Source: Campylobacteraceae bacterium (GTDB taxonomy: Bacteria; Campylobacterota; Campylobacteria; Campylobacterales; Campylobacteraceae). From it: 42,127 nucleotides of DNA. The notes under the pieces were generated by a model, which had not been told where the DNA came from, did no database searches, and saw only the letters and a program-made list of their open reading frames with translations. The stretch is taken from contig JAIRNE010000089.1 of assembly GCA_031258205.1 (NCBI GenBank), positions 1-42,127 of the forward strand, written 5' to 3'. The translations under genes were made by a program, and so were the position numbers. Of this stretch, positions 1 to 41,831 are shown piece after piece; position 1 is the stretch's first letter; each line of letters begins with the position of its first letter.

Positions 1-679
1 CAGCGGGTGGTATTTTCAGCAATTTCTCAAAATGGCGTATGCATACAAATGTCCGCATAAATATTATCTTATTTGGGATGCCGACACTATTTTGCTAAAT
101 AAAATCGCTTTTTGGGACAATGACAGGAAGCCTTTGTTTGCCATGAAAACAGAATTTCATATTCCCTACTTTAAAACAATTGATAAGTTATTTTGCAAAG
201 AAGTAACAAAATTGACAGATAAATCGTTCATCGCAGAACATATGCTAATAAACAAGGATTGCATGCTGGATATGTTGGCAAAAATTGAAAATAATAAAAT
301 GCTGAAAGGAGAAGCGTTTTATGAAAAAATCATGCATGCGATAGACAAAAACGATATACAAGCGTCCGGATTTAGCGAGTTTGAAACTTATGGGAATTAT
401 ATTTTAAAATATTATCCGCATTTATACGGTACAAGAACGCTGCGAACGTTTAGAGATGGAGCTAAGCTAATCAACAAAAAAGATATCAACGATGGAGTTT
501 TAAAGTGGATTTCAAGTGAATATGATACGGTGAGTTTTGAAAAACATTCGTATCATAAAACGTCAAAAAAATTTAAAAGTATTTTCAGATTTATCGTACG
601 GTATAGAATAATATCGTTTAGTGCATATCGGTATTGTTATAAGATATTTCACAAAATATTTAAAAGAGTAATAAAATAG
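1..679 (+). CDS. Partial host gene (5' end outside window), polysaccharide-biosynthesis/glycosyltransferase-like protein (possibly DUF6492-like)
   Basis: Frame is open from base 1 (SGWYFQQFLKMAYAYKCPHKYYLIWDADTILLNK...); WDADT motif; lies outside attL. Confidence 0.45.
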   Translation, partial: SGWYFQQFLKMAYAYKCPHKYYLIWDADTILLNKIAFWDNDRKPLFAMKTEFHIPYFKTIDKLFCKEVTKLTDKSFIAEHMLINKDCMLDMLAKIENNKMLKGEAFYEKIMHAIDKNDIQASGFSEFETYGNYILKYYPHLYGTRTLRTFRDGAKLINKKDINDGVLKWISSEYDTVSFEKHSYHKTSKKFKSIFRFIVRYRIISFSAYRYCYKIFHKIFKRVIK

Positions 680-872
680 CTTTTTTTATTAAAACGGTAA
701 AAATTACATACGTCAAAAAATTTATACATTTTATCTGAGGTTTGGCATTTTTGAATTTGATTAACATGGCAACGAATGTAGACATAACCGTTATTTTTAC
801 CCTCAAAAGATAAATTTTTACAGGTTTTTACGCGTTTTTATATGTTGTAGAAATAGTGTAAAAAAGCCCGTA

Positions 873-938
873 TTTTGGAGTGTTTAAGTTGTTTTACGTT
901 GTTATGGATTGTTATGTTCTGGCGGACAGAGAGGGATT
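873..938 (+). repeat. attL, 66-bp direct repeat carrying the duplicated tRNA-Ser 3' end
   Basis: ttttggagtgtttaagttgttttacgttgttatggattgttatgttctggcggacagagagggatt identical to 41962-42027. Confidence 0.95.
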
Positions 939-990
939 TATAATTATATTAAAAAGCCCGAAAATAAGGCTTTTGACTTTAAAAAAGGTC

Positions 991-1020
991 TGTATTATAC
1001 CCTCAAAAATACCCTTAAAA
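991..1020 (+). repeat. Candidate integrase arm-type site, left copy
   Basis: tgtattataccctcaaaaatacccttaaaa, nearly matching 41868-41897. Confidence 0.5.
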
Positions 1021-1239
1021 GTCAACAATACCACTTTCCCACTTCTTGCTAAATTCTATTATATCATCTTTTTTCCATACAACGTATTTATGTTTTTTAA
1101 TAGTGGGAGATGGAGCTTTGCCTGCACTAACCATCTCTCGCCAAGCTGTTGCGCTAAAATTGAATAGAAATGTTATGTCATCTATAGAGAGGTAAAATTT
1201 TTCAAGTATTGGATATTTTTCAGTTTGTGTTAGTTTCAT
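1015..1239 (-). CDS. Small AlpA/excisionase-like DNA-binding protein
   Basis: 74 aa; YLSIDDITFLFNFSATAWREMVSAGKAPSP...VVWKKDDIIEF is typical of AlpA/MerR-like excisionases; adjacent to attL. Confidence 0.55.
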   Translation of the reverse strand: MKLTQTEKYPILEKFYLSIDDITFLFNFSATAWREMVSAGKAPSPTIKKHKYVVWKKDDIIEFSKKWESGIVDF

Positions 1240-1565
1240 TTTTTATTTCCTCCTTCAATAATTATTTCAAATCTTTGTTTGATTTTGCTTTCGTAGTAGG
1301 CTTTTTTATCTCCGTTTTTTCCCCATCTTGAGCGGATTGTGCAAAACGGGATATGATAATTTCCTATAAACACTAATTGCAAGTGCTCGCCTTTGCCTAA
1401 CTCATATTTATCTTTAAAACCTTTTTTATCCAAAAAAGTTGTATCATAATCTTCTAAAGTTGGATTTAAATCTTTTGGCAAAAACAGTGTTCTTACCGCT
1501 ATCAAATCCGCCCGTGTTTGCCCGAAAAGCTTTAAATAATTGTGGCTGAATTTTATTGTGTTCAT
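1236..1565 (-). CDS. Hypothetical phage protein, 109 aa
   Basis: Intact ORF, 4-bp overlap with the downstream gene. Confidence 0.6.
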   Translation of the reverse strand: MNTIKFSHNYLKLFGQTRADLIAVRTLFLPKDLNPTLEDYDTTFLDKKGFKDKYELGKGEHLQLVFIGNYHIPFCTIRSRWGKNGDKKAYYESKIKQRFEIIIEGGNKK

Positions 1566-1669
1566 AATAATACTCCTTGTACATTTTGTATTCGGTTTTG
1601 TGCTATCTCACAATACTCTTTGATTTCAGAGCCGATATAGTTACGTGAGTGTTTTATGCACTCCAAACG
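1562..1669 (-). pseudogene. C-terminal remnant of a site-specific DNA methyltransferase
   Basis: Frame reads RLECIKHSRNYIGSEIKEYCEIAQNRIQNVQGVLL*, like the C-terminus of N4/N6 DNA methyltransferases; no upstream catalytic domain. Confidence 0.5.
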
Positions 1670-1814
1670 CTCCTATTTTGGTACTCCTAAGCTTATCCAC
1701 GACAATCCATTCACTGCCGTTTTTGTAGGCTATAAGTCCGCCTTTTAATACTGTAAACACACTGCGGCTGTAGTCGGCTTTGTATCCGACAAGCATTTTT
1801 GTGTAAGTGGTCAT
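1641..1814 (-). CDS. Hypothetical protein, 57 aa
   Basis: MTTYTKMLVGYKADYSRSVFTVLKGGLIAYKNGSEWIVVDKLRSTKIGAFGVHKTLT*; ATGA overlap with the upstream ClpP-like gene. Confidence 0.5.
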   Translation of the reverse strand: MTTYTKMLVGYKADYSRSVFTVLKGGLIAYKNGSEWIVVDKLRSTKIGAFGVHKTLT

Positions 1815-2314
1815 TTGATAACTCCTTGAATTTCGTCGATAATGCTGTAAGCTAATGCTTCTTCGGCAGTCATGTAAAAATCTTTTTCAGTGTCTTTTTT
1901 TATTTTTTCAAGTGGCTGCTTTGTAAGTTGAGACAATAATTTGTTACAAATATCTTGAGACATTTGTAATTCTTCCATTTTTTCTTGTAACTCGATTGAG
2001 TTATAGCCACCATATAATGATTTCCAAGCCTGATGTATCATAATCCTCGAGTGCTTTGTTGCTATCCTTTTATGTCCTGCTGCCAAAATCGTAGCCGCCG
2101 CAGAATAAGCAATGCCCGTACAAAAAGTTGTTATCTTTGTTATGTCGGGATTTACCGATAAAATCAGGTCTGTGATAGCTGCCATACTACCGACTTTACC
2201 GCCTCCACTATTGATATATAATGTGATATTTCTTTCTCTTGCCTCAATACCTTTTATCAACTCTGATATAACCGTTTGGGCTTTTCCAATTGTTCCGAAA
2301 AGATAGATATTCAT
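1811..2314 (-). CDS. ClpP-like serine protease (orphan, non-capsid location)
   Basis: GIAYSAAATILAAG (Ser), RIMIHQAW (His) and EKDFYMTAEEA (Asp) match ClpP active-site motifs. Confidence 0.85.
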   Translation of the reverse strand: MNIYLFGTIGKAQTVISELIKGIEARERNITLYINSGGGKVGSMAAITDLILSVNPDITKITTFCTGIAYSAAATILAAGHKRIATKHSRIMIHQAWKSLYGGYNSIELQEKMEELQMSQDICNKLLSQLTKQPLEKIKKDTEKDFYMTAEEALAYSIIDEIQGVIK

Positions 2315-2316
2315 TT

Positions 2317-2583
2317 TTACGCCGCCTGTTTGATAGCGTATTCAACCGCTTCAATCTCTTGCGCGGTGAAGTTGTTATCTTTGTAGATTTGCTCTAATGG
2401 CATATCGCCTACGAATACGCTTTTGTGGTTTGGTAAGCCTATACGGATTAAGCCTTTATCGTAAACTCCTATACCCCATAATGCTACGTAACGGAGGTTA
2501 CCCTCGCCTTCGTAAAGATGTTTGAAGTTACCAAATACGGTAGCGTAACGGCGGGTTGAGGGTTTAACTTTGCTCTTTTTCAT
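2317..2583 (-). CDS. Hypothetical phage protein, 88 aa
   Basis: Intact ORF, first gene of the leftward early operon. Confidence 0.6.
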   Translation of the reverse strand: MKKSKVKPSTRRYATVFGNFKHLYEGEGNLRYVALWGIGVYDKGLIRIGLPNHKSVFVGDMPLEQIYKDNNFTAQEIEAVEYAIKQAA

Positions 2584-2617
2584 TTTGAAATCCTTTGAAA
2601 GGTTTTGATGGTGAAAG

Positions 2618-2677
2618 AGTACTATATGTACTATTAAAAAGTACTTAAATTAATAATTAAAGAGTACATATTGTATT
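2618..2677. promoter_or_regulatory. Candidate repressor operators (two AGTAC-N5-GTA(C/T)T sites)
   Basis: AGTACTATATGTACT 2618-2632 and AGTACATATTGTATT 2663-2677; a related site lies at 10763-10777. Confidence 0.5.
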
Positions 2678-2746
2678 TTTTATGCTATAATGGTGGGAGA
2701 GTTTAGAAAAGTTTAGATTGAAAATTAAGGGCAGGAGATATACAAT

Positions 2747-4606
2747 ATGTTATTAAAATCTACATTTAGGCATAGTGACATGAAAGTTAAACTAAGCAAA
2801 GCCGCTAAAATGTTTTTTGGAAATTCATCTTTAGAGATGGTGTATTTTGAAGCTATTGCTAATGCGCTTGATGCTGGAGCTGATGAGATTAAAATCGTAA
2901 TTCATATGGAAGATTATGCAAAGCCCGCAACATTATCTATAAGTATAGAAGATAACGGCATTGGCTTTACTGATGAAAAATTTGACAAGTTTGACAAGCT
3001 GTTTGATACAGATGAAGCATCCCATAAAGGCATTGGGAGATTGGCGTATTTGTGTTATTTCAATAAGATATTGATTGAAAGTAACTATAATAAATATTAT
3101 CGTAGAACATTTGAATTTTCGGATAATTTTGACGGTGAATCAAATATAACCAATGTAGAAGAGAGCAAATCAGGCACAAAGCTATTTATGTCCGAATATG
3201 CTTTGGCAAAATTAGGCAAATATGGATTTGTTCAGCCCAGACTTCTAAAGGAAAAAATAATAGATAAGTTTTATTCAAGATTGTATAAATTCAAGCAAAC
3301 GGGGCAACATATAACCATATCTATATCAACTACTATAGATAACAAGTCTGCAACAGAGATTTTGTCTACCGATGAAATATCCGAGTTGGAACCAGCAGAG
3401 ATTCATTACCCTTTTGATTTATCTGAAGCAGAGTTTTATTATAAGATAGATGAAGCGCCTATGGAAAAGGGTAAAACAATTACTGCCATATCTATTGATA
3501 ATAGGACATATTCCGTTGATATTATTGCGGAAGAGAATTTACCTACGGGATATAATATGGTATTTTTGCTATTTTCAGATAGTTTTGATGGGTATGTAGA
3601 TGCAGCGAGAGAAACTCCATTATTCCCCAACATAGAATCAATCAAAAAAATATTTAGGAAAAATATCGCTTATATCATAAGTGAAAAATTACCACAAGTA
3701 CAAGAACGCAATATAGAAATAAAAGAGTATCTTATTGACCGTTTTCCACACCTTAATGATTATTTTGATGACGAAAGTATTGGTTATGCTTCACAAGATA
3801 ATATTCTTGAAAAAGCACAAGAGAAGTTTTTCAAAGCTCAAAAGGAGATACTTACTGCTGAACAATTAGATGATGAGCAATATAGTGAGTCATTAGAACT
3901 ATCGTCAAGAGCATTAACCGAGTATATTCTTTTTAGGCAAATTATTATTAATAAATTAAAAGCTATAGATAAAAAAGATCCAGAATCTTGTATCCATAAT
4001 TTAATAATACCTAAAAAAAGACGTCTTAGTAAAGATGATTTGGAAAATGACTTATATAATAATGGCGTCTGGGTTCTTGATGATAAATATATGACTTATA
4101 ACACAGCATTGAGCGATGAAGAGATGTCTGAAGTTGTCAATGTGATTACAGATGGAGAAACTACGGAAGGCGGCAAGGGCAGACCTGATATTTCATTAAT
4201 ATTTTCCGAAGATCCTCGGCAAGAAGATAAAAAAGTTGATGTTGTAATTGTTGAGTTTAAAAAGAAAGGTCTTTCGGCAGAGGAAAACTCAATTGTTGAA
4301 GTTCAATTGAAAAATAGAGCAAGAAAGCTAATGAAGTATTATGGAAATAGAATTCAACGAATGTGGTTTTATGGCATCGTGGAAATAAGTGAAGATTATA
4401 AATATCATTTATTTGATGAAAACTACAATGAGCTATATTCTAATGGTAAATTATTTTATAAATTTACTGAAGTTACATTGGAGATAAGCCCTTTAGTAAA
4501 AGTTCCTATGGGCATATTTATTATGGACATAGATGCGGTTGTAAAAGATGCCGATGCTCGTAACTCTACTTTTTTAAATATCATCAAAAGTAAGTTTAAA
4601 GCTTGA
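2747..4606 (+). CDS. GHKL (Hsp90/MORC-like) ATPase with C-terminal putative PD-(D/E)XK nuclease; candidate defence protein
   Basis: N-box EAIANALDAGADEI, DNGIGF box, KGIGRLAYLCYF box; C-terminal PDISLIF...VDVVIVEFKKKG nuclease-like motif. Confidence 0.75.
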   Translation: MLLKSTFRHSDMKVKLSKAAKMFFGNSSLEMVYFEAIANALDAGADEIKIVIHMEDYAKPATLSISIEDNGIGFTDEKFDKFDKLFDTDEASHKGIGRLAYLCYFNKILIESNYNKYYRRTFEFSDNFDGESNITNVEESKSGTKLFMSEYALAKLGKYGFVQPRLLKEKIIDKFYSRLYKFKQTGQHITISISTTIDNKSATEILSTDEISELEPAEIHYPFDLSEAEFYYKIDEAPMEKGKTITAISIDNRTYSVDIIAEENLPTGYNMVFLLFSDSFDGYVDAARETPLFPNIESIKKIFRKNIAYIISEKLPQVQERNIEIKEYLIDRFPHLNDYFDDESIGYASQDNILEKAQEKFFKAQKEILTAEQLDDEQYSESLELSSRALTEYILFRQIIINKLKAIDKKDPESCIHNLIIPKKRRLSKDDLENDLYNNGVWVLDDKYMTYNTALSDEEMSEVVNVITDGETTEGGKGRPDISLIFSEDPRQEDKKVDVVIVEFKKKGLSAEENSIVEVQLKNRARKLMKYYGNRIQRMWFYGIVEISEDYKYHLFDENYNELYSNGKLFYKFTEVTLEISPLVKVPMGIFIMDIDAVVKDADARNSTFLNIIKSKFKA

Positions 4607-4638
4607 ATATAATAATATTATAGAACAAAAGGATTATT

Positions 4639-5028
4639 ATGGAACAAATTCAATTTACTACCCATGCACAATATGATGATTTTAAAGGATTGGTTTCTAT
4701 TGATGGAGCTGATGTCGGCAATAAAGATATACATGATATCTTGAGAGAGCTAAAAATAGATATGAAAAAATATTGCTTAGTTGGCATAGAAATATATAAA
4801 GAGCATTATGACTTTGTGTCTTTATATGTTTTGGATATGGCTGGAATAGATACCGCAAGAGAGTATATTCAATCAATAAAAGATGATGAACCGATTAAAG
4901 TATTCAGAGTTAATACGAAGCTGACATTGGAACAATTCATAAAAAGGACAAAAAGATTTTCTATGATATTGGAACCACGAGGATTAAATATAATTAATAG
5001 AGAGATGATAGTAGAAGATATAAATTAA
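4639..5028 (+). CDS. Hypothetical 129-aa protein, probable operon partner of the GHKL protein
   Basis: 32 bp after the 619-aa ORF, same strand, own SD (aaaaggattattATG). Confidence 0.65.
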   Translation: MEQIQFTTHAQYDDFKGLVSIDGADVGNKDIHDILRELKIDMKKYCLVGIEIYKEHYDFVSLYVLDMAGIDTAREYIQSIKDDEPIKVFRVNTKLTLEQFIKRTKRFSMILEPRGLNIINREMIVEDIN

Positions 5029-5038
5029 TACCTGTTTT

Positions 5039-5185
5039 TCATTCTGCATAGTAATAAGTATTCGTTGTTTTACTGAAAGAAATATTATTTGCGATGAATG
5101 ATGATCTTCTTAATGTCCCTTCTAATATAATATGCTTAATTTCTGTATGCGGCAGTTTTTCATCAAAATGGCTATCTTTGCTCAT
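5039..5185 (-). CDS. Hypothetical small protein, 48 aa
   Basis: MSKDSHFDEKLPHTEIKHIILEGTLRRSSFIANNISFSKTTNTYYYAE*; not in the supplied track, may be a relic. Confidence 0.3.
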   Translation of the reverse strand: MSKDSHFDEKLPHTEIKHIILEGTLRRSSFIANNISFSKTTNTYYYAE

Positions 5186-5220
5186 TTATACTTCTCAAAA
5201 ATTCACTCTAAATATAATCT

Positions 5221-5484
5221 TCACCCGTTTCTATAAACTTCACTTCTATGCCCGATTTTTAAGATAAGGATTATAAGTTTATCGTCTTGTATATCGCAGA
5301 TAAGACGATAGTCTCCGACTCTATACCGCCACAAATCGTTCAAATTGCCAACAAGAGACTTCCCTCTGCTTCTTGGATTTTCAAGGCTCTCAAGCTCGTC
5401 TGTAAATTTTTTAATCTTCTTTTGAATGCTAAAATCAAGCTTTTCAAATTGCTTTTGGGCTCTTGCTTGGTATGCGATTTTCAT
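5221..5484 (-). CDS. RelE/YafQ-type toxin
   Basis: 87 aa; GNLNDLWRYRVGDYRLICDIQDDKLIILILKIGHRSEVYR is characteristic of RelE/ParE-like toxins. Confidence 0.85.
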   Translation of the reverse strand: MKIAYQARAQKQFEKLDFSIQKKIKKFTDELESLENPRSRGKSLVGNLNDLWRYRVGDYRLICDIQDDKLIILILKIGHRSEVYRNG

Positions 5485-5705
5485 TCCAAACCTAATTTTT
5501 TATACAGGTCGTGTGCAGATATCGCTCTTTCGCCGCTTTTTTGAAACTCTCTTAACGCTTTAATGCCGTCGTAATAATCTTCCAAATCTTCCAAATGCGT
5601 CATCAAAGCTTCTCTTATTATTTGAGAATTGGAAACTTTAGCCTTTTTGCTTACGATAGACAGTCTATGCTCTAACTCTTCGGGTATTCTAACGGATAAA
5701 GTCAT
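5481..5705 (-). CDS. Ribbon-helix-helix antitoxin
   Basis: MTLSVRIPEELEHRLSIVSKKAKVSNSQIIREALMTHLED...; ATGA overlap with the toxin; start set at MTLSV rather than the longer ORF-track start. Confidence 0.85.
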   Translation of the reverse strand: MTLSVRIPEELEHRLSIVSKKAKVSNSQIIREALMTHLEDLEDYYDGIKALREFQKSGERAISAHDLYKKLGLE

Positions 5706-5761
5706 GTTAACTCCTTTGTATGACAATGTATGACGGATTATAACATAATTTTTATGATTTG
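5574..5761. repeat. 188-bp direct repeat, copy 1 (antitoxin promoter and 5' end)
   Basis: One mismatch seen by eye to 8729-8916, offset 3155 bp. Confidence 0.95.
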
Positions 5762-5927
5762 CCCTCAATCACATATTTTTCTCAAAAATTCACTTTTGAC
5801 ATAATTATTTCTTTCTCCAATCCCATGGAGGAATTGGATTTTTATCTTGCCAAAGCTATCGCTTGGCTTCTTTTGTTTTTTCTTCATATTCGGCATAGTC
5901 TTTGTCATATTGAATATATGCCCATTA

Positions 5928-6860
5928 TTAGATTTTGTCTGTATACGGTAGTTGTTTTATATAATCTTCCATAAATTGCCAATCTGGGTTACCATCAATA
6001 GCTGATGGTAATTTGATCATCATTTTTTTACAATTGTTTAATCTAATTTGCCTACCATAGTTCCATCGATAATTTTCTTTATTAATGATTGTTGACAAAA
6101 ATAACCCAATATACTTATTTAAAATATTATTATTTGACAAAATAGTAACATCTGAAGTTGCACAAAAACCTCTGTTTTGATAAAAAGTTGTACATCCAAT
6201 TTTACCTATTGTAATAGAATTTTTATTAAAATCTGGAGCTAAATCTATGCATTTTGATATACCATTATTAGTATTTGTAGCAGAAACATAATGCACGCTA
6301 CCGTTATTATATTCATCTGAATAATAGAATTTACCAGGATTTATTTCAAATAAATCACTCAATTTAAAATATTTCCAGTTTTCTATACTAATATCCATTT
6401 TTTTTACTTTTACTGCAGAAGTTATTAATGACGAATATTCTTTTAGATCTATTTTGTAAATCCATTCCGGTATTTTATCTGGCAATTCTATATTTCCCAA
6501 TGTTCTGTTGGCTTGTCTTCCATAATTGTATCTGTATTTATTATGGCTAATGACACAACAATAATATAATTTTTCTAATAATGTCATTCTTTTTTTAGGA
6601 ATAAGAATAGCGACATGAAATGACACATAAAAATCTTTATTTTGAACAAAGGCCGACAACACACTTCCACCTAAAGCAATAGTTATACATCCAGCGCTAT
6701 AGGGAGCAAAATCATTTATAGCATCAACACAATCAGAAACGCCATTGTTTTCTCCTGTTCTGGAAACAAAATTTACTGAAGGATTAAGCTTGGTTGTGTT
6801 TATCAATTCTAAAGGTTTGGGTTTTATGATTGAAAATAGTTCTTTAATCTTCATAAGCAA
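5928..6860 (-). CDS. Specificity subunit (type I S / BcgI B-like, two TRDs)
   Basis: Two tandem TRD-like halves, each with an NYGRQ motif (YRYNYGRQANRTLGNIELP; YRWNYGRQIRLNNCKKMMIKLP). Confidence 0.85.
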   Translation of the reverse strand: MLMKIKELFSIIKPKPLELINTTKLNPSVNFVSRTGENNGVSDCVDAINDFAPYSAGCITIALGGSVLSAFVQNKDFYVSFHVAILIPKKRMTLLEKLYYCCVISHNKYRYNYGRQANRTLGNIELPDKIPEWIYKIDLKEYSSLITSAVKVKKMDISIENWKYFKLSDLFEINPGKFYYSDEYNNGSVHYVSATNTNNGISKCIDLAPDFNKNSITIGKIGCTTFYQNRGFCATSDVTILSNNNILNKYIGLFLSTIINKENYRWNYGRQIRLNNCKKMMIKLPSAIDGNPDWQFMEDYIKQLPYTDKI

Positions 6861-8724
6861 TTCCGTTCTTAACTAAATATGCAAAATACTCTCTTATCGT
6901 TTTTTCAAAGTCATTCTGATTTAAAACAGAATAATCTGTTTCCATATATGCTTCGGCACACCATTCATCTTTATAATTCACTTCTTTTGTTACGCTTAAC
7001 CCATTAATATTTTTTTTATTGCCATAAGCATTAACCCATTTATTTTTTATATCTTTCCATTTATTGTTAACATCGATTCTGCCTTTTAGCTTTCTTTTTT
7101 CAAAACCATCATTTTTAAAATATCCAAAAAAAGTCTCTTTGCCTTTGGGGTGCGGTGTGTGGGCTTTAAATATGATTATACATGTAACAGCGCCAACAGG
7201 ATAGAACAGATCATCAGGCATACTTAATACTGCGTCTAATGTATGTCTAGATAAAAGACGTTTTTTTAAGTCTATAGTTTTAGCGTTTGAACTTATTGCT
7301 GCTGACATTTGACAAATAGCTATGCATATCCCATCTTTTACGATACAATCCATAGCATTATCAATGAATTCAAGCTGCCCATCTTCGCCAACATCATAAG
7401 GTGGATTTAAAAATACTTTATTGGGTTTTTCTTGCTTAACTAATTCTTTTAAGTTGTCATCAAAACAATCTCCATAATGAATATGACTTTTCCCATCTCC
7501 CATCATCATCATATTAGAGCAAGCGTGAGAGAACATATCGGCTCTACGTTCAATGCCGATAAGCTGCTCCGTTTTTATTTTCTGTTGTAAGCTTAAATTA
7601 TTCCCTACGTCTTTAACCATGTGTTTCATTGCTGATACTAAAAATCCTCCTGTACCACAACAAGGATCAAACACAATATCATTACTTGTTATATTGGCTA
7701 ATTCGCAAAATAAATCTGTGATATGCGTAGGAGTTAACACTAAACCTGTCTTTTTGTCGCTTCCTGCATAGCGTATAAATTGAGTATAAAATCTACCCAA
7801 AACATCAAAATAATTTTGTTTTACATACGGCATAATATCTTTATTGATATCATCAATAAGGTCTCTTAGTAAAGTATTTGCAATGATTTCATGTTTCTTC
7901 TTAAAAGAAATTGATTTTAGAATATGGTTTTGTTTTATTTTTCCATATTCCCCCAATATAACTTTTCGCTTTTGCTCATTTAATCCACGTTCATTTAAAA
8001 CACTTTCGCAAGAAATCAAAAGGCTGTCAATTAAATGTTCATTTGGGTTATAATCTGATGCCAAATCTATTTTATTGTCTATTGTTAATTTGTGCTTAAA
8101 TGTACTAAATGTTTTTGGGAAAGCCCCACTTTGCAAGGCTACAAGAATTGAACTAATTAATGTACATCTTTCAACTTCTGGAATTGAATATCTATGCAAT
8201 CTTTCATTATATTCAATCGCTTTTTTTACTAACTCATTATCTTTTATAGGTTTTATATGTTCATCAATTAGTGAAAAAATTGAACCAAACGGGATTAGAT
8301 GTTTGTCATTCATATCTTTTTCTTTAGACATGCCTTTAATCCAAAGAAAGTGAGATATTTTTATTTCCCTTTCCGTTTCGCCACTTACTGCAACAGCAGT
8401 AACATTGAAGTCATTTTTTAAATACGAAGCATACAAAAGAACGCCATCAACAGCATAATCTTTATATTTGTCTCTATCGGAACTTTCATGTTTTGTTGTA
8501 TCTGCTTTACATTCAATAATCATGATATCTTCAGACTTATTGACAAATGATATTATAAATTCTGGTTTGCCAACACCTTTTCCCGACTTTGATGCATGTT
8601 GAAGGAGTTTATTTATTTTAGGATTTTCTGACTTTTGCTCTTCTATCTTAACTAAATCATTGTTATATCCATTGTCTACTAATAATTTTCGAACAATGTT
8701 TTCGGTAATTCTCTCATTTGCCAT
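6844..8724 (-). CDS. BcgI A-like fused nuclease / N6-adenine DNA methyltransferase
   Basis: N-terminal GKPEFIISFVNKSEDIMIIECKAD (PD-(D/E)XK); DPCCGTGGF and NPPY motifs; no HsdR helicase nearby. Confidence 0.85.
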   Translation of the reverse strand: MANERITENIVRKLLVDNGYNNDLVKIEEQKSENPKINKLLQHASKSGKGVGKPEFIISFVNKSEDIMIIECKADTTKHESSDRDKYKDYAVDGVLLYASYLKNDFNVTAVAVSGETEREIKISHFLWIKGMSKEKDMNDKHLIPFGSIFSLIDEHIKPIKDNELVKKAIEYNERLHRYSIPEVERCTLISSILVALQSGAFPKTFSTFKHKLTIDNKIDLASDYNPNEHLIDSLLISCESVLNERGLNEQKRKVILGEYGKIKQNHILKSISFKKKHEIIANTLLRDLIDDINKDIMPYVKQNYFDVLGRFYTQFIRYAGSDKKTGLVLTPTHITDLFCELANITSNDIVFDPCCGTGGFLVSAMKHMVKDVGNNLSLQQKIKTEQLIGIERRADMFSHACSNMMMMGDGKSHIHYGDCFDDNLKELVKQEKPNKVFLNPPYDVGEDGQLEFIDNAMDCIVKDGICIAICQMSAAISSNAKTIDLKKRLLSRHTLDAVLSMPDDLFYPVGAVTCIIIFKAHTPHPKGKETFFGYFKNDGFEKRKLKGRIDVNNKWKDIKNKWVNAYGNKKNINGLSVTKEVNYKDEWCAEAYMETDYSVLNQNDFEKTIREYFAYLVKNGIAYED

Positions 8725-8860
8725 TGTGATAATCTTCCAAATCTTCCAAATGCGTCATCAAAGCTTCTCTTATTATTTGAGAATTGGAAACTTTAGCTTT
8801 TTTGCTTACGATAGACAGTCTATGCTCTAACTCTTCGGGTATTCTAACGGATAAAGTCAT
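8714..8860 (-). pseudogene. Truncated antitoxin retaining only the RHH DNA-binding part (48 aa), overlapping the methyltransferase start
   Basis: Reads MTLSVRIPEELEHRLSIVSKKAKVSNSQIIREALMTHLEDLEDYHNGK*; identical to 5705 downward until the repeat ends. Confidence 0.85.
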
Positions 8861-8916
8861 GTTAACTCCTTTGTATGACAATGTATGACGGATTATAACA
8901 TAATTTTTATGATTTG
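8729..8916. repeat. 188-bp direct repeat, copy 2
   Basis: See 5574-5761. Confidence 0.95.
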
Positions 8917-9063
8917 TCGTAAGGCTCTAAAATAGATACTTTTTTATTGCTGATTGTTTTTATATATTTCTCAAAAATTCGCTTTCGGATATGACTATTT
9001 ATTTCTTTTTTATATAGTTTCTCAATACTAAAAAAATTTTACCGCACGTGATTGCGTCATCTT

Positions 9064-9993
9064 TTACAATATTGACCTTATGACTTTCCCGATGATTTTG
9101 AATACTATTTGAGAGTCATTTAAATCTACCGTATAGCTTTTATAGTCTCTATTTGCAGAGATAATTTCCACTTTGCCGTTTGGAGTAATCTGTACAATTT
9201 TAACCATAAGCGTATTGTCCCAATTTAATACATATAAGCCGTCGCCTCTAAAATTTTCATCATCGTTAAAAATTACCCAACTGTCCGGTAAAAGCATAGG
9301 TAACATACTATAGCCGTCTATTTTTATAGCTTTTAGATTTTTAGTGTTGCTAAGTCTAAGGGTATCGTTATCCCCCACAAAAACACCATTAACACTAAAA
9401 TTGTCTATTGCTTCAAGATTGTTTCCGCCGCCTGCGCTTGCAGTAACGGATAACTTAGGTATACAAACTATGTCAACATTTATATCGTTATTATTTTTTT
9501 TAATATCTTTTTCGATAAGCTCACTAAAATTAGAATCTTGTTCTTGATTAAGATTTAATCCCTTAAAAGATGCCGTAAGCCTTTCAGAAAATTCTAAAAG
9601 ACGTTTATTGGTGCTTGCAAAAGCAGCATTAATTTGCCTAAATGGTTTTGTAAGACTTTCTATTGTTTTTGCGATATTTCCGTCAAATTCAACAAAATTT
9701 TTCATAGCCTGTATCGTTTGACCTTTTAAAGCCTTTTCATTGGTAATTCTAAACTCTCTAAATCCATAGTATAACTCTTCCGCTTTTATGCCAAATATGT
9801 CAATAAGATTTTTCATTTGACCAACCGTAATCCTTGTTTCTGCTTTTGGATCGCTCCAATTTTTAAAAGTTGTTGCATCTATATTGGTGTCAAATTTTTG
9901 GTTGTATGCTTGGATAAACTTCTTTTCGTCGCCATATTGCACCTTTACTAATTGTCTGAAAGCTCTTTTGTTAAAAAGTTTCGGTCTTTTCAT
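9064..9993 (-). CDS. CI/LexA-like phage repressor with S24 peptidase domain
   Basis: N-terminal HTH-like region; ASAGGG cleavage-site-like motif, GYSMLP serine, MVKIV lysine. Confidence 0.85.
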   Translation of the reverse strand: MKRPKLFNKRAFRQLVKVQYGDEKKFIQAYNQKFDTNIDATTFKNWSDPKAETRITVGQMKNLIDIFGIKAEELYYGFREFRITNEKALKGQTIQAMKNFVEFDGNIAKTIESLTKPFRQINAAFASTNKRLLEFSERLTASFKGLNLNQEQDSNFSELIEKDIKKNNNDINVDIVCIPKLSVTASAGGGNNLEAIDNFSVNGVFVGDNDTLRLSNTKNLKAIKIDGYSMLPMLLPDSWVIFNDDENFRGDGLYVLNWDNTLMVKIVQITPNGKVEIISANRDYKSYTVDLNDSQIVFKIIGKVIRSIL

Positions 9994-10042
9994 TTTGTCT
10001 CCTTTGTTTTAAGCTTGTTTTTTCATTCTTTAAATTCATATT

Positions 10043-10687
10043 TCACTCAAACATAGATTGTATAGAACCGAGAAGTTTGATTCTTGCAACTACTTTACCG
10101 ACAATTTCAAACTCTCTTTTGTCCGTTCTTTTATCAAACGTGGAAGCTGACAATTGATTTTCATCGTTTTTAATATGTATAATTGACTTCCCTTCAAAAT
10201 TGAGATATTTAATGTAATTTACACCATCAAGACAGATAAGATAAAAATCATCTTTTTGTAGCAATGGATTATTTTTTTTAAGCTCTATGATAATCCATTC
10301 ATCACCTATTTTTGTACTTATGAGATTTTCTTTTATTGTGCCTTGAGGCAAATAATTGATATCTATATCTCCATAATCGGTATTTTCAGTGCTATTTGTT
10401 TTGTCCACATTTATTTGTACGTCAAATTTTTTTATAGGTATTGATACAATGTTTTTATTTTGACGCGGCGTATAGTTATCAAAAAATAAAACATTTGCGT
10501 CTTTTGTGTTTGTAACTTTTAAAACCATTTCTATAAAATCAGGTTTCGGCGTTCTTGAGCCATCTCTGTACTTTGTTATACTTTCTTTGCTTATTTTGTA
10601 CTCATAAGCATTATAAAGCGTCTCTGCTAACTTCGCGCTCGTCATTTTTGTATTAGTTAAAAGTGCGTCTAATCTCTTTGCAAACAT
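10043..10687 (-). CDS. Second XRE-family repressor, degenerate S24-like C-terminus
   Basis: HTH N-terminus (KISKESITKYRDGSRTPK); C-terminus ends EIVGKVVARIKLL, but the GxSMxP position reads KKNNPLL. Confidence 0.7.
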   Translation of the reverse strand: MFAKRLDALLTNTKMTSAKLAETLYNAYEYKISKESITKYRDGSRTPKPDFIEMVLKVTNTKDANVLFFDNYTPRQNKNIVSIPIKKFDVQINVDKTNSTENTDYGDIDINYLPQGTIKENLISTKIGDEWIIIELKKNNPLLQKDDFYLICLDGVNYIKYLNFEGKSIIHIKNDENQLSASTFDKRTDKREFEIVGKVVARIKLLGSIQSMFE

Positions 10688-10762
10688 TAATATTCTCCAT
10701 ATTTTAATATATTACAATATATTCAAGTACATAAAGTCCTACAACATTTATTTCTTTTTAAG

Positions 10763-10777
10763 AGTACTATATGTATT
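10763..10777. promoter_or_regulatory. Candidate repressor operator
   Basis: AGTACTATATGTATT, 14/15 identical to 2618-2632. Confidence 0.45.
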
Positions 10778-10786
10778 ATTACACTC

Positions 10787-11080
10787 ATGAATAGAGTACA
10801 ATTTAAAGACATCTTAAATAGATATTATGCTAAGACAACTATTAATTCTCTCCTATGTGGAAGGAGAACCCCTTCTTACCGGCAAGCGGTTTTGCTTGAG
10901 CAAAAAGAAAATATCCCTCTAAATGCTTGGCAAAACATCAAACTTTACTTGCAAGAGAATGCTACCGAACAAAAAACCTGTGCGCAAGAGTTCCCGACTG
11001 TGCAGGAGTGTGATGATGGGAACAGTAGTGTGCAAAGCGGTGAAAGTGTTGATGTGGATTCTCACAATGACGGAAGGTGA
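10787..11080 (+). CDS. Cro-like small DNA-binding protein
   Basis: 97 aa, divergent from the repressors; short HTH-like N-terminus. Confidence 0.5.
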   Translation: MNRVQFKDILNRYYAKTTINSLLCGRRTPSYRQAVLLEQKENIPLNAWQNIKLYLQENATEQKTCAQEFPTVQECDDGNSSVQSGESVDVDSHNDGR

Positions 11081-11083
11081 TAG

Positions 11084-11320
11084 ATGAAACTGTACGGCGC
11101 GTCTAAAGATAGCAACGACAAAAAGTTAAGCCGTATAACCGTCTCTTTGGGGTATGAGGATATGGAGCTTATAGAGGAGATAGCAGACGCTAAGAATATA
11201 AGCAACAGCGAAGTGATAAATCTTTTGATAAGACCTACGATAAGGCTTATTAAAGAGCAAGAGGCATTGATAAAAGAAAACCCAAAAGCCGTAGCTTTTG
11301 ACTTGGTGACTAAGGTTTAG
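11084..11320 (+). CDS. Ribbon-helix-helix-like phage protein
   Basis: SRITVSLGYEDMELIEEIADAKNISNSEVINLLIRPTI. Confidence 0.5.
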   Translation: MKLYGASKDSNDKKLSRITVSLGYEDMELIEEIADAKNISNSEVINLLIRPTIRLIKEQEALIKENPKAVAFDLVTKV

Positions 11321-11321
11321 A

Positions 11322-11507
11322 ATGAATAAAGAAGCGATACTTGAGGCTATCAAAGCGGCGGACGAAGAGTTAAAAGAGATAGAAAAATTGATAATAAACC
11401 GTAAAAATATCTCCGATACAAGGACAAAAGAGTTTTTAGAGATGATAAGAAAAAGAATCAAAAAAATGAGGTTGAAAGGAGTTAGCTATGACGCCGACAA
11501 TGCTTAA
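11322..11507 (+). CDS. Hypothetical protein, 61 aa
   Basis: Tightly packed early operon ORF. Confidence 0.5.
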   Translation: MNKEAILEAIKAADEELKEIEKLIINRKNISDTRTKEFLEMIRKRIKKMRLKGVSYDADNA

Positions 11508-11757
11508 AGGCGGGGGGAATTACCGCGTTATCAGGCATTTGCTGAATGTCGGGGGATTGACTGCGGTCGAATGTCTGCTAAATGGTATCAGTCCCGATTT
11601 GAGGTCCCGCGTGAGCGAGCTTAAGCGATACGGATTTGATATAGAGGCGAAAAAGGTACAAGGTAAGCAGTATAAGCTCTACTATGTGCCTGCCGACAAA
11701 CTTGAGCGTAACCGCGAGTGGTTTGCAAGGGTGTTTTACGGGGCGAAAACGGCTTAA
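11488..11757 (+). CDS. Winged-helix/HTH-like phage protein, 89 aa
   Basis: GGLTAVECLLNGISPDLRSRVSELKRYGFDIEAKK. Confidence 0.55.
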   Translation: MTPTMLKGGGNYRVIRHLLNVGGLTAVECLLNGISPDLRSRVSELKRYGFDIEAKKVQGKQYKLYYVPADKLERNREWFARVFYGAKTA

Positions 11758-11830
11758 TGGATTGCTTCGTCGCAAGCGGTTCGCAATGACGGAGAATGGA
11801 TTTCTTCGCTCCGCTCGCAATGACGGGAAA
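11756..11830. repeat. Two tandem REP-like elements
   Basis: ggattgcttcgtcgcaagcggttcgcaatgacgg / ggatttcttcgctccgctcgcaatgacgg. Confidence 0.7.
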
Positions 11831-11838
11831 GGTAAAAA

Positions 11839-12105
11839 ATGTATATAGATAGAAGCCAAAGGGTTTACAATTTTATTGCTGACGAACTTGAAAAGAAATA
11901 TGACATACTCCCTCAATGTGTGGATGTAAACAGACATAATATTTTTATACAGTTTCACGAAATAATCAGCGAAACGGAAATAACTATAGTCCGAAGAAAC
12001 GGGTTAGTAAAGATTTGGAATTTTTACCCGACTGAAAGAACGATACAACTTATAAGTGAAATTGCAAAAATGAAGTGGCAAATCATAGCAGTGGCGAAAG
12101 GATAA
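11839..12105 (+). CDS. Hypothetical protein, 88 aa
   Basis: Intact ORF with SD. Confidence 0.5.
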   Translation: MYIDRSQRVYNFIADELEKKYDILPQCVDVNRHNIFIQFHEIISETEITIVRRNGLVKIWNFYPTERTIQLISEIAKMKWQIIAVAKG

Positions 12106-40625: not shown

Positions 40626-41831
40626 TTACGAATTTTTGAGGTTATCTAAATAGTCCGACCACCACTGCATAAGTTTCACGCGTTCTAACATGTATTCGGC
40701 ATGGTTATAAGCCGCTTTAACGCCGTTTCGTTCTGAATGAGCCAATTGTCGTTCTATAGCGTCCGAATGGATACCGTGAGCTGAAATATTTTCATGTAAA
40801 ATAGTTGAAGCTATGCCCCTGAAACTATGCGCCACTATTTCGTCTTTTGTGTAATCAAGTCTGCGCAGGGCTTGCACAAGCGTATTTTCGCAAATCGGTC
40901 GCAAATTTGATGTGGGACTTGGAAATAGATATTTACCGTTACCTATTATTTTTTTCACATTTTGAATAATTTCTATTACCTGTTTTGAGAGTGGAATAAT
41001 GTGAGGTGTTTTTGTTTTCATTTTTTCTTTTGGGATGCGCCAAATTTTTTTGTCAAGGTCAATTTCCGACCATTCCGCAAAACGCAAGTTTGCCGGACGC
41101 AAAAAGACATGAGGAGCAAGCTGCAAGGCATATTTTGTAATTAAATTTCCATGATAATTGTCTATGTCCCGCAGCAATTGTCCTAATTTTTTAGGCTCTA
41201 TGATTACGGGGAAATTACGTTTTACGGCTTGTTTAAAAGTGTTTTTTCTATCTATATCGGCTATTATATTGTGAGGCGCGTATTCTTTTGACACTGCAAA
41301 TTTAAAAATGGAATTGAGCGTATTTAGCACTTTACGAAGCGTTTCTAAATACCCTTTTGCTTCTATTATTTCAGCCATTTTTATTACATCTTTAACCGTT
41401 ATTTTTGACGTTTCTAAATTGCCGATTTGGGGATTTATATGATTGCGTAGATAGCCTTCTATGCTCTCTTTATGTGTTAAGCTGATTCTGTCGGCGTTTT
41501 TTTCAAGCCATATTTGCGCAACTTTTTCGAGTGAATTTATTTCATTTTGCAACTTTTTTTTGCGTTTGTCAGTTGGATTGATGCCGTTTTTTACTTGTTT
41601 ATAATATTCTTTATGTTTTTCTCTTGCTTGTGCAAGCGATATCTCCGGATATTTACCGATAGACAGCAGTTGCTCTTTGCCATCTATTTTATATCTAAAA
41701 TGCCAATATTTTACACCTGTTACGTTTATGACTAAGCATAATCCATTTCCATCGAATAACTTATATATTTTATCTTTTGGCTTTGCATTCTTTACTTTCA
41801 ATTCGGATAACGGAGTAACAAGTTTAGGCAT
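40626..41831 (-). CDS. int: Tyrosine integrase (P4-type, DUF4102 N-terminus)
   Basis: KPKDKIYKLFDGNGLCLVI...; HSFRGIASTILHE, RQLAHSERNGVKAAYNHAEYMLERVKLMQWWSDYL. Confidence 0.95.
   Translation of the reverse strand: MPKLVTPLSELKVKNAKPKDKIYKLFDGNGLCLVINVTGVKYWHFRYKIDGKEQLLSIGKYPEISLAQAREKHKEYYKQVKNGINPTDKRKKKLQNEINSLEKVAQIWLEKNADRISLTHKESIEGYLRNHINPQIGNLETSKITVKDVIKMAEIIEAKGYLETLRKVLNTLNSIFKFAVSKEYAPHNIIADIDRKNTFKQAVKRNFPVIIEPKKLGQLLRDIDNYHGNLITKYALQLAPHVFLRPANLRFAEWSEIDLDKKIWRIPKEKMKTKTPHIIPLSKQVIEIIQNVKKIIGNGKYLFPSPTSNLRPICENTLVQALRRLDYTKDEIVAHSFRGIASTILHENISAHGIHSDAIERQLAHSERNGVKAAYNHAEYMLERVKLMQWWSDYLDNLKNS

Follow-up and report, generated by a model that had tools for sequence, protein, structure and literature searches.

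GHKL enzymes such as MutL, MORC and gyrase undergo an ATP-driven N-terminal dimerisation, which closes on DNA. The paraMORC3 family was defined by Iyer, Abhiman and Aravind, and its lone genes may serve another, non-RM role according to the same report (Iyer 2008, PMC2292703). VcSduA, a GHKL-DUF4263 protein named "Shedu type I-D", protects against phages and has been related to both paraMORC3 and Shedu (Adams et al. 2025, PMC12137116). The E27A (ATPase) and K557A (nuclease) mutations of VcSduA each abolish the phage protection (PMC12137116).

We analyzed a locus of a Campylobacteraceae bacterium (assembly GCA_031258205.1, contig JAIRNE010000089.1). The window, which is the whole stretch of DNA analyzed (42,127 nucleotides), is a prophage: it carries genes for a DnaB-type helicase, a replication initiator, the large terminase, the portal, the major head protein and the tape measure, and an integrase gene is located at positions 40626-41831. 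ORF1 (2747-4606, plus strand) starts with ATG behind the Shine-Dalgarno sequence AGGAG (2733-2737) and encodes a protein of 619 amino acids. ORF2 (4639-5028, plus strand) is placed 32 nt downstream and encodes a protein of 129 amino acids. Leftward genes at 1015-2583 and 5221-8724 flank the two ORFs, and both ORFs are present where the original prediction, which had considered them a candidate defence cassette, placed them. A ClpP-like protease gene (1811-2314, minus strand; Pfam CLP_protease, E 8e-38) is found among the leftward early genes, apart from the head genes. No match was obtained in the Rfam search of window positions 1-12000.

Domains and structure model of ORF1

ORF1 (2747-4606) possesses the domain order GHKL-S5-PD-(D/E)XK of the paraMORC3 type, as judged by motifs, conservation and the AlphaFold2 model. 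The GHKL ATPase domain (residues 28-118; 2828-3100) was significant in Pfam (HATPase_c_3, E 7.8e-10; HATPase_c, E 4.6e-9), both matches pass the curated cut-offs, and the N-box (E35/N39), D69xG71xG73 and G95xG97 are intact. An S5/transducer-like region (about residues 155-290; 3209-3616) was assigned from the alignment of the model to mouse MORC3 ATPase-CW (5ix2), and a helical coupler (residues 296-405; 3632-3961) from the secondary structure of the model. The C-terminal nuclease-like domain (3974-4603) is delimited by conserved columns, a profile match to the sister family A6 and the secondary structure of the model. E413xxxH417, W442xxDD446, P480-D481, E503xK505, Q520 and R605-N606 in this domain are invariant or near-invariant.

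In the 83 aligned sequences of the ORF1 family, E35, N39, D69, G71, G95, G97 and R98 are invariant on the ATPase side, and E413, W442, D445, D481, E503, K505 and N606 on the C-terminal side; G73, H417 and P480 are near-invariant. The intact GHKL motifs and the C-terminal nuclease-like motif, both of which had been proposed for the 619-aa protein from its own letters, are thus borne out by the Pfam match and by these invariant columns. The C-terminal domain of the ORF1 clade gave no Pfam nuclease match above the cut-off. A DUF4365 match on ORF1 (E 0.043) was below the cut-off and came from a single member, and it was taken as chance.

An AlphaFold2 model of ORF1 built from the 83-sequence alignment reached a mean pLDDT of 91.1; an earlier run with 12 sequences had given a poor C-terminus (pLDDT 69). 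Residues 7-318 of the model align with mouse MORC3 ATPase-CW (5ix2) over 280 residues (Z 19.9, rmsd 3.7), and also with the ATPase-transducer regions of Hsp90, MutL and GyrB (gyrase). The ATPase-transducer fold is predicted with confidence. Around D481 and E503xK505, the model has the order beta(482-486)-beta(497-504)-alpha(511-531)-beta(536-545), with pLDDT mostly above 90. This strand-strand-helix-strand order is as expected for a PD-(D/E)XK core. The Foldseek and VIA rows for the whole model were filled by the ATPase part, and missing nuclease rows are therefore uninformative.

Relationship of ORF1 to paraMORC3 and Shedu

As in paraMORC3, an N-terminal GHKL domain with intact motifs is followed in ORF1 by an S5-like module and an extra C-terminal domain with E-D-ExK residues, for which the model predicts a nuclease-like core in ORF1. 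Both families are frequent in Bacteroidota and Proteobacteria, and both occur in RM neighborhoods as well as in standalone copies. ORF1 differs in that its family has relatives in type 3 BREX operons, since BREX is unmentioned in PMC2292703. ORF1 shares the GHKL-S5 ATPase fold with prokaryotic and eukaryotic MORC ATPases, whereas it carries the nuclease-like C-terminal domain and lacks the CW domain.

By architecture, VcSduA is the nearest experimentally proven relative of ORF1: in both, a GHKL ATPase precedes a PD-(D/E)XK nuclease within one chain. By motif, E35 and K505 of ORF1 are putative counterparts of the essential Glu and Lys of VcSduA. However, the ORF1 clade is shorter (K505 versus K557), and it has neither a PF14082 match nor a direct profile match to Shedu. 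PF14082 (SduA_C/DUF4263) was not matched at E<=0.1 in 57 ORF1-family members.

The connection to Shedu runs through the sister family A6, whose members have 650-710 amino acids. With full-length profiles, the ORF1 family (A3) matched A6 at 99.9% (E 6.8e-37, 568 columns). When only the C-terminal domains were compared, the probability was 98.8% for the ORF1 clade versus A6 (E 1.3e-16) and 96.0% for A6 versus Shedu (E 3.8e-9), whereas it was 1.4% for the ORF1 clade versus Shedu directly. Nine unrelated families served as controls and gave <=3.4% for each clade and <=5.0% for both combined; the profiles were built from shallow alignments (Neff about 3-4). In Vibrionaceae A6 members, the N-box Glu is residue 27 and the ExK Lys is residue 556; by position number these compare with E27 and K557 of VcSduA. 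The genes of these A6 members are preceded by those for type I M and S. On a Vibrio fluvialis plasmid (L149, 2628-6022), an annotated Shedu nuclease gene is placed between the S gene and the GHKL-nuclease gene, after type I M/S. This adjacency suggests stacked effectors.

PADLOC, a further check suggested with the original prediction, gave no ORF1 match at E<=1 with its 2023 models, and the few matches among 57 relatives were weak, isolated and single-member. Since PF14082, the direct profile and PADLOC were all negative, ORF1 is filed as paraMORC3-type and, via A6, as a distant relative of GHKL-Shedu; a formal Shedu assignment was withheld because of the negative PF14082 and direct profile tests. 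The paraMORC3 placement rests on the match of architecture, motifs, host range and contexts to the published description. The original view that the locus could not be assigned to a named system is revised accordingly: it matches paraMORC3 (PMC2292703) in architecture, motifs and contexts, with VcSduA as the nearest proven relative.

Distribution and gene context of the ORF1 family

Relatives of ORF1 occur in 12 of the 397 genomes of the window's phylum, with the window's own genome counted (best identity, 38%), and at 80 or more further GTDB loci at 25-60% identity. Among the matches listed, the GTDB hosts are mostly Bacteroidota and Proteobacteria, with Spirochaetes, Lentisphaerae and others, and the loci include many on short MAG contigs. 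Relatives were found on 25 viral contigs. Scans of viral contigs with single-protein queries gave no match, and neither did tblastn of ORF1 against plasmids and phages.

The family is associated with methylation-based defence operons. Among the matches listed, type I RM genes are present at 15 of 78 ORF1-family loci, type 3 BREX genes at 12 and both together at none (27 of 78 with either context); RM or BREX clusters are missing from about two thirds, and many relatives have no nearby MTase. At L028 and L072, which hold the two closest relatives among these matches (59-60% identity), the gene is flanked by HsdM on one side and HsdS on the other, at intergenic distances of 6-13 bp. HsdM was detected in the flanks of 12 of 49 loci among the matches listed, against 0.64 expected from the N6_Mtase density (209 matches in 203 Mb; Poisson 6e-12). 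Because defence genes cluster in general, this HsdM association is an enrichment and not a proof. The operon positions are tight, and we therefore argue for a probable functional link between the ORF1 relatives and the RM and BREX operons.

In type 3 BREX operons, the usual order is BrxF, BrxC, a Schlafen (AlbA_2)-HATPase protein, the ORF1 relative, PglXI, BrxH and PglZ. The Schlafen (AlbA_2)-HATPase protein has about 620 amino acids and is mostly the immediate neighbor of the ORF1 relative (L068, L078-L083, L085, L086, L091 and L096). Auxiliary PD-(D/E)XK nucleases of BREX loci (PMC12839542) resemble the BREX-borne ORF1 relatives in that the nuclease gene is found amid BREX core genes and adjoins a Schlafen-histidine-kinase-like gene. 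In contrast, GHKL and MORC are unmentioned in PMC12839542, and the prophage that carries ORF1 has no BREX. The defence-type setting of a GHKL ATPase with a PD-(D/E)XK-type domain, as originally predicted, is supported by these operons and by the variable cargo slot of the prophage described below.

Promoter, 5′ module and cargo slot

An extended -10 promoter element, TGCTATAAT (TGn-TATAAT; 2683-2691, plus strand), was found by pattern search and alignment, and is common to two same-genus relatives. It is followed by a conserved 5′ module (2701-2790, plus strand) comprising the leader, the Shine-Dalgarno sequence and the first 15 or so codons (blastn E 6.5e-32; DNA search of 150 family genomes). 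Of the 150 family genomes, only three, which all belong to the genus of the window, had the pattern TGCTATAATN{15,45}TTTAGATTRRAAATTAAG, and the reversed-pattern control gave 0. Because a consensus scan for promoters and terminators did not outperform shuffled sequences, we base the promoter claim on this conservation.

In genome G012, the promoter-leader segment precedes a distant GHKL-nuclease gene. Window 2701-2790 and G012:C7 39915-40004 have 92% DNA identity over 90 bp around the start codon, the proteins have 25% amino acid identity, and beyond the first 90 bp no DNA alignment to the window was obtained. As read from these alignments, the two genes are a shared 5′ module with a swapped body. 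The G012 gene is flanked by an integrase-like gene and by small early genes resembling those of the window.

The prophage of genome G005 is colinear with the window (identities: terminase, 88%; portal, 71%; head, 68%; tape measure, 72%). Between its promoter and its repressor gene are a DUF5131 gene and a 398-aa gene (L176, 15005-16901, G005 contig 149), which are candidate conflict genes. The 398-aa gene had no Pfam match; we take it to be TcmP-like. The same promoter-leader thus carries a different cargo in a colinear sister prophage, and therefore ORF1 is in a variable cargo slot. From this comparison, window 2747 to about 9000 is the variable cargo region of the prophage.

The same region also encodes a ParE toxin (E 1.6e-16) and, together with an S subunit, a type IIG-like MTase (PADLOC REase_MTase_IIG, E 5e-121), which agrees with the TA and RM neighbors noted in the letters. 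The type IIG/S enzyme is encoded at 5928-8724 on the strand opposite to ORF1, 1.3 kb beyond it; ORF2 and the ParE toxin/ribbon-helix-helix (RHH) antitoxin pair are located in between. A 198-nt direct repeat, 98% identical, at 5564-5761 and 8719-8916 brackets the genes for the type IIG MTase and the S subunit and spans the start of the RHH antitoxin gene. The repeat resembles a footprint left by insertion of the RM module, and recombination between the two copies could lead to the loss of this module.

ORF2

ORF2 (4639-5028) has no Pfam family, in line with the original remark that its 129-aa product has no recognised domain. From its relatives, it is nevertheless a member of a real, unnamed family of small-protein genes, with 13 relatives (L133, L136 and L138-L148) that have in common the motif QYxDFKGxxAAD and a KRF/KRL near the C-terminus. 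They occur as lone genes, both on plasmids (Sinorhizobium, Methylocystis, Sphingopyxis and Acinetobacter) and on eight viral contigs; some are near toxin-antitoxin genes. Among 298 genomes of the window's phylum, no other had an ORF2 relative. DUF257 and ASFV matches on ORF2 (E 0.06-0.08) were below the cut-offs and from single members, and were taken as chance.

No ORF2 relative is near an ORF1-family gene at the 78 loci among the matches listed, and no ORF1 relative is near an ORF2-family gene at its 13 loci. The two-gene cassette with a small partner, as first proposed, was rejected on this count. ORF2 is probably an unrelated, independent passenger in the slot of ORF1.

Discussion

We consider it likely that ORF1 is a putative anti-phage nuclease of the GHKL-S5-PD-(D/E)XK (paraMORC3) type, which would act as a single-gene system, is expressed from its own promoter and is carried by the prophage as lysogen cargo. 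Its position in a variable cargo region fits a putative "moron" gene that protects the lysogen. The dimer clamp, DNA as the substrate, the trigger and the phage protection are proposed by analogy. Two ORF1 subunits would bind ATP, as in MutL, MORC and VcSduA. The N-terminal GHKL domains would then dimerise, and the clamp formed by GHKL and S5 would close on DNA. The helical coupler may relay the closed state to the C-terminal nuclease, which would thereby be licensed to cut incoming phage DNA, and superinfecting phages would be excluded by this cleavage.

It is unlikely that ORF1 is instead a restriction accessory, which would read the methylation by the adjacent type IIG/S enzyme and cut unmodified DNA. 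Its close relatives are indeed within HsdM-X-HsdS and BrxC-X-PglXI operons, and a type IIG MTase with an S subunit is present in the same cargo region. However, these RM genes look like a separate arrival because they are on the opposite strand, are separated from ORF1 by other genes and bear their own flanking 198-bp repeat; moreover, many members of the family have no MTase nearby. A two-gene cassette for abortive infection, or one resembling a toxin-antitoxin pair, with ORF2 as the regulator of the nuclease, would account for the common strand, the 32-nt gap and the failure to find a terminator between the two genes (by a scan no better than shuffles). Since the two families do not pair at the 78 and 13 loci mentioned above, and ORF2 is absent from the same-promoter locus of G012, this arrangement is very improbable. 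ORF1 and MutL have a common ATPase fold, and a non-RM role was allowed for lone members by Iyer 2008 (PMC2292703), yet a MutL-like repair or recombination protein of host or phage, outside defence, is hardly credible for ORF1: the MutL equivalog TIGR00585 scores 19.6 bits against a cut-off of 180, and the family is patchy (12 of 397 genomes), enters RM and BREX operons and occupies a swapped cargo position.

Beyond the preferred reading of ORF1 as a single-gene anti-phage nuclease, we tentatively raise a wider idea, possible although doubtful, that the clade is a plug-in ATP-gated nuclease, which would serve as an extra effector of type I RM and type 3 BREX and would be exchanged among prophages behind a constant promoter/start-codon module. 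If so, the same 5′ segment would drive interchangeable defence genes.

By architecture, motifs and context, ORF1 is filed with the paraMORC3 proteins, which are a group of bacterial anti-virus proteins that is known but has been little studied. Our analysis contributes a widespread clade of GHKL-nuclease proteins missed by the 2023 PADLOC models and names its predicted catalytic residues. It also links the clade to operons of type I RM and type 3 BREX and to a cargo slot of a prophage. This slot, which has a common promoter and 5′ module and differing cargo in close relatives, may offer a route to further prophage defence genes. The clade also bears on how MORC-like ATPases, which were later used in eukaryotic silencing, may act in bacterial immunity.
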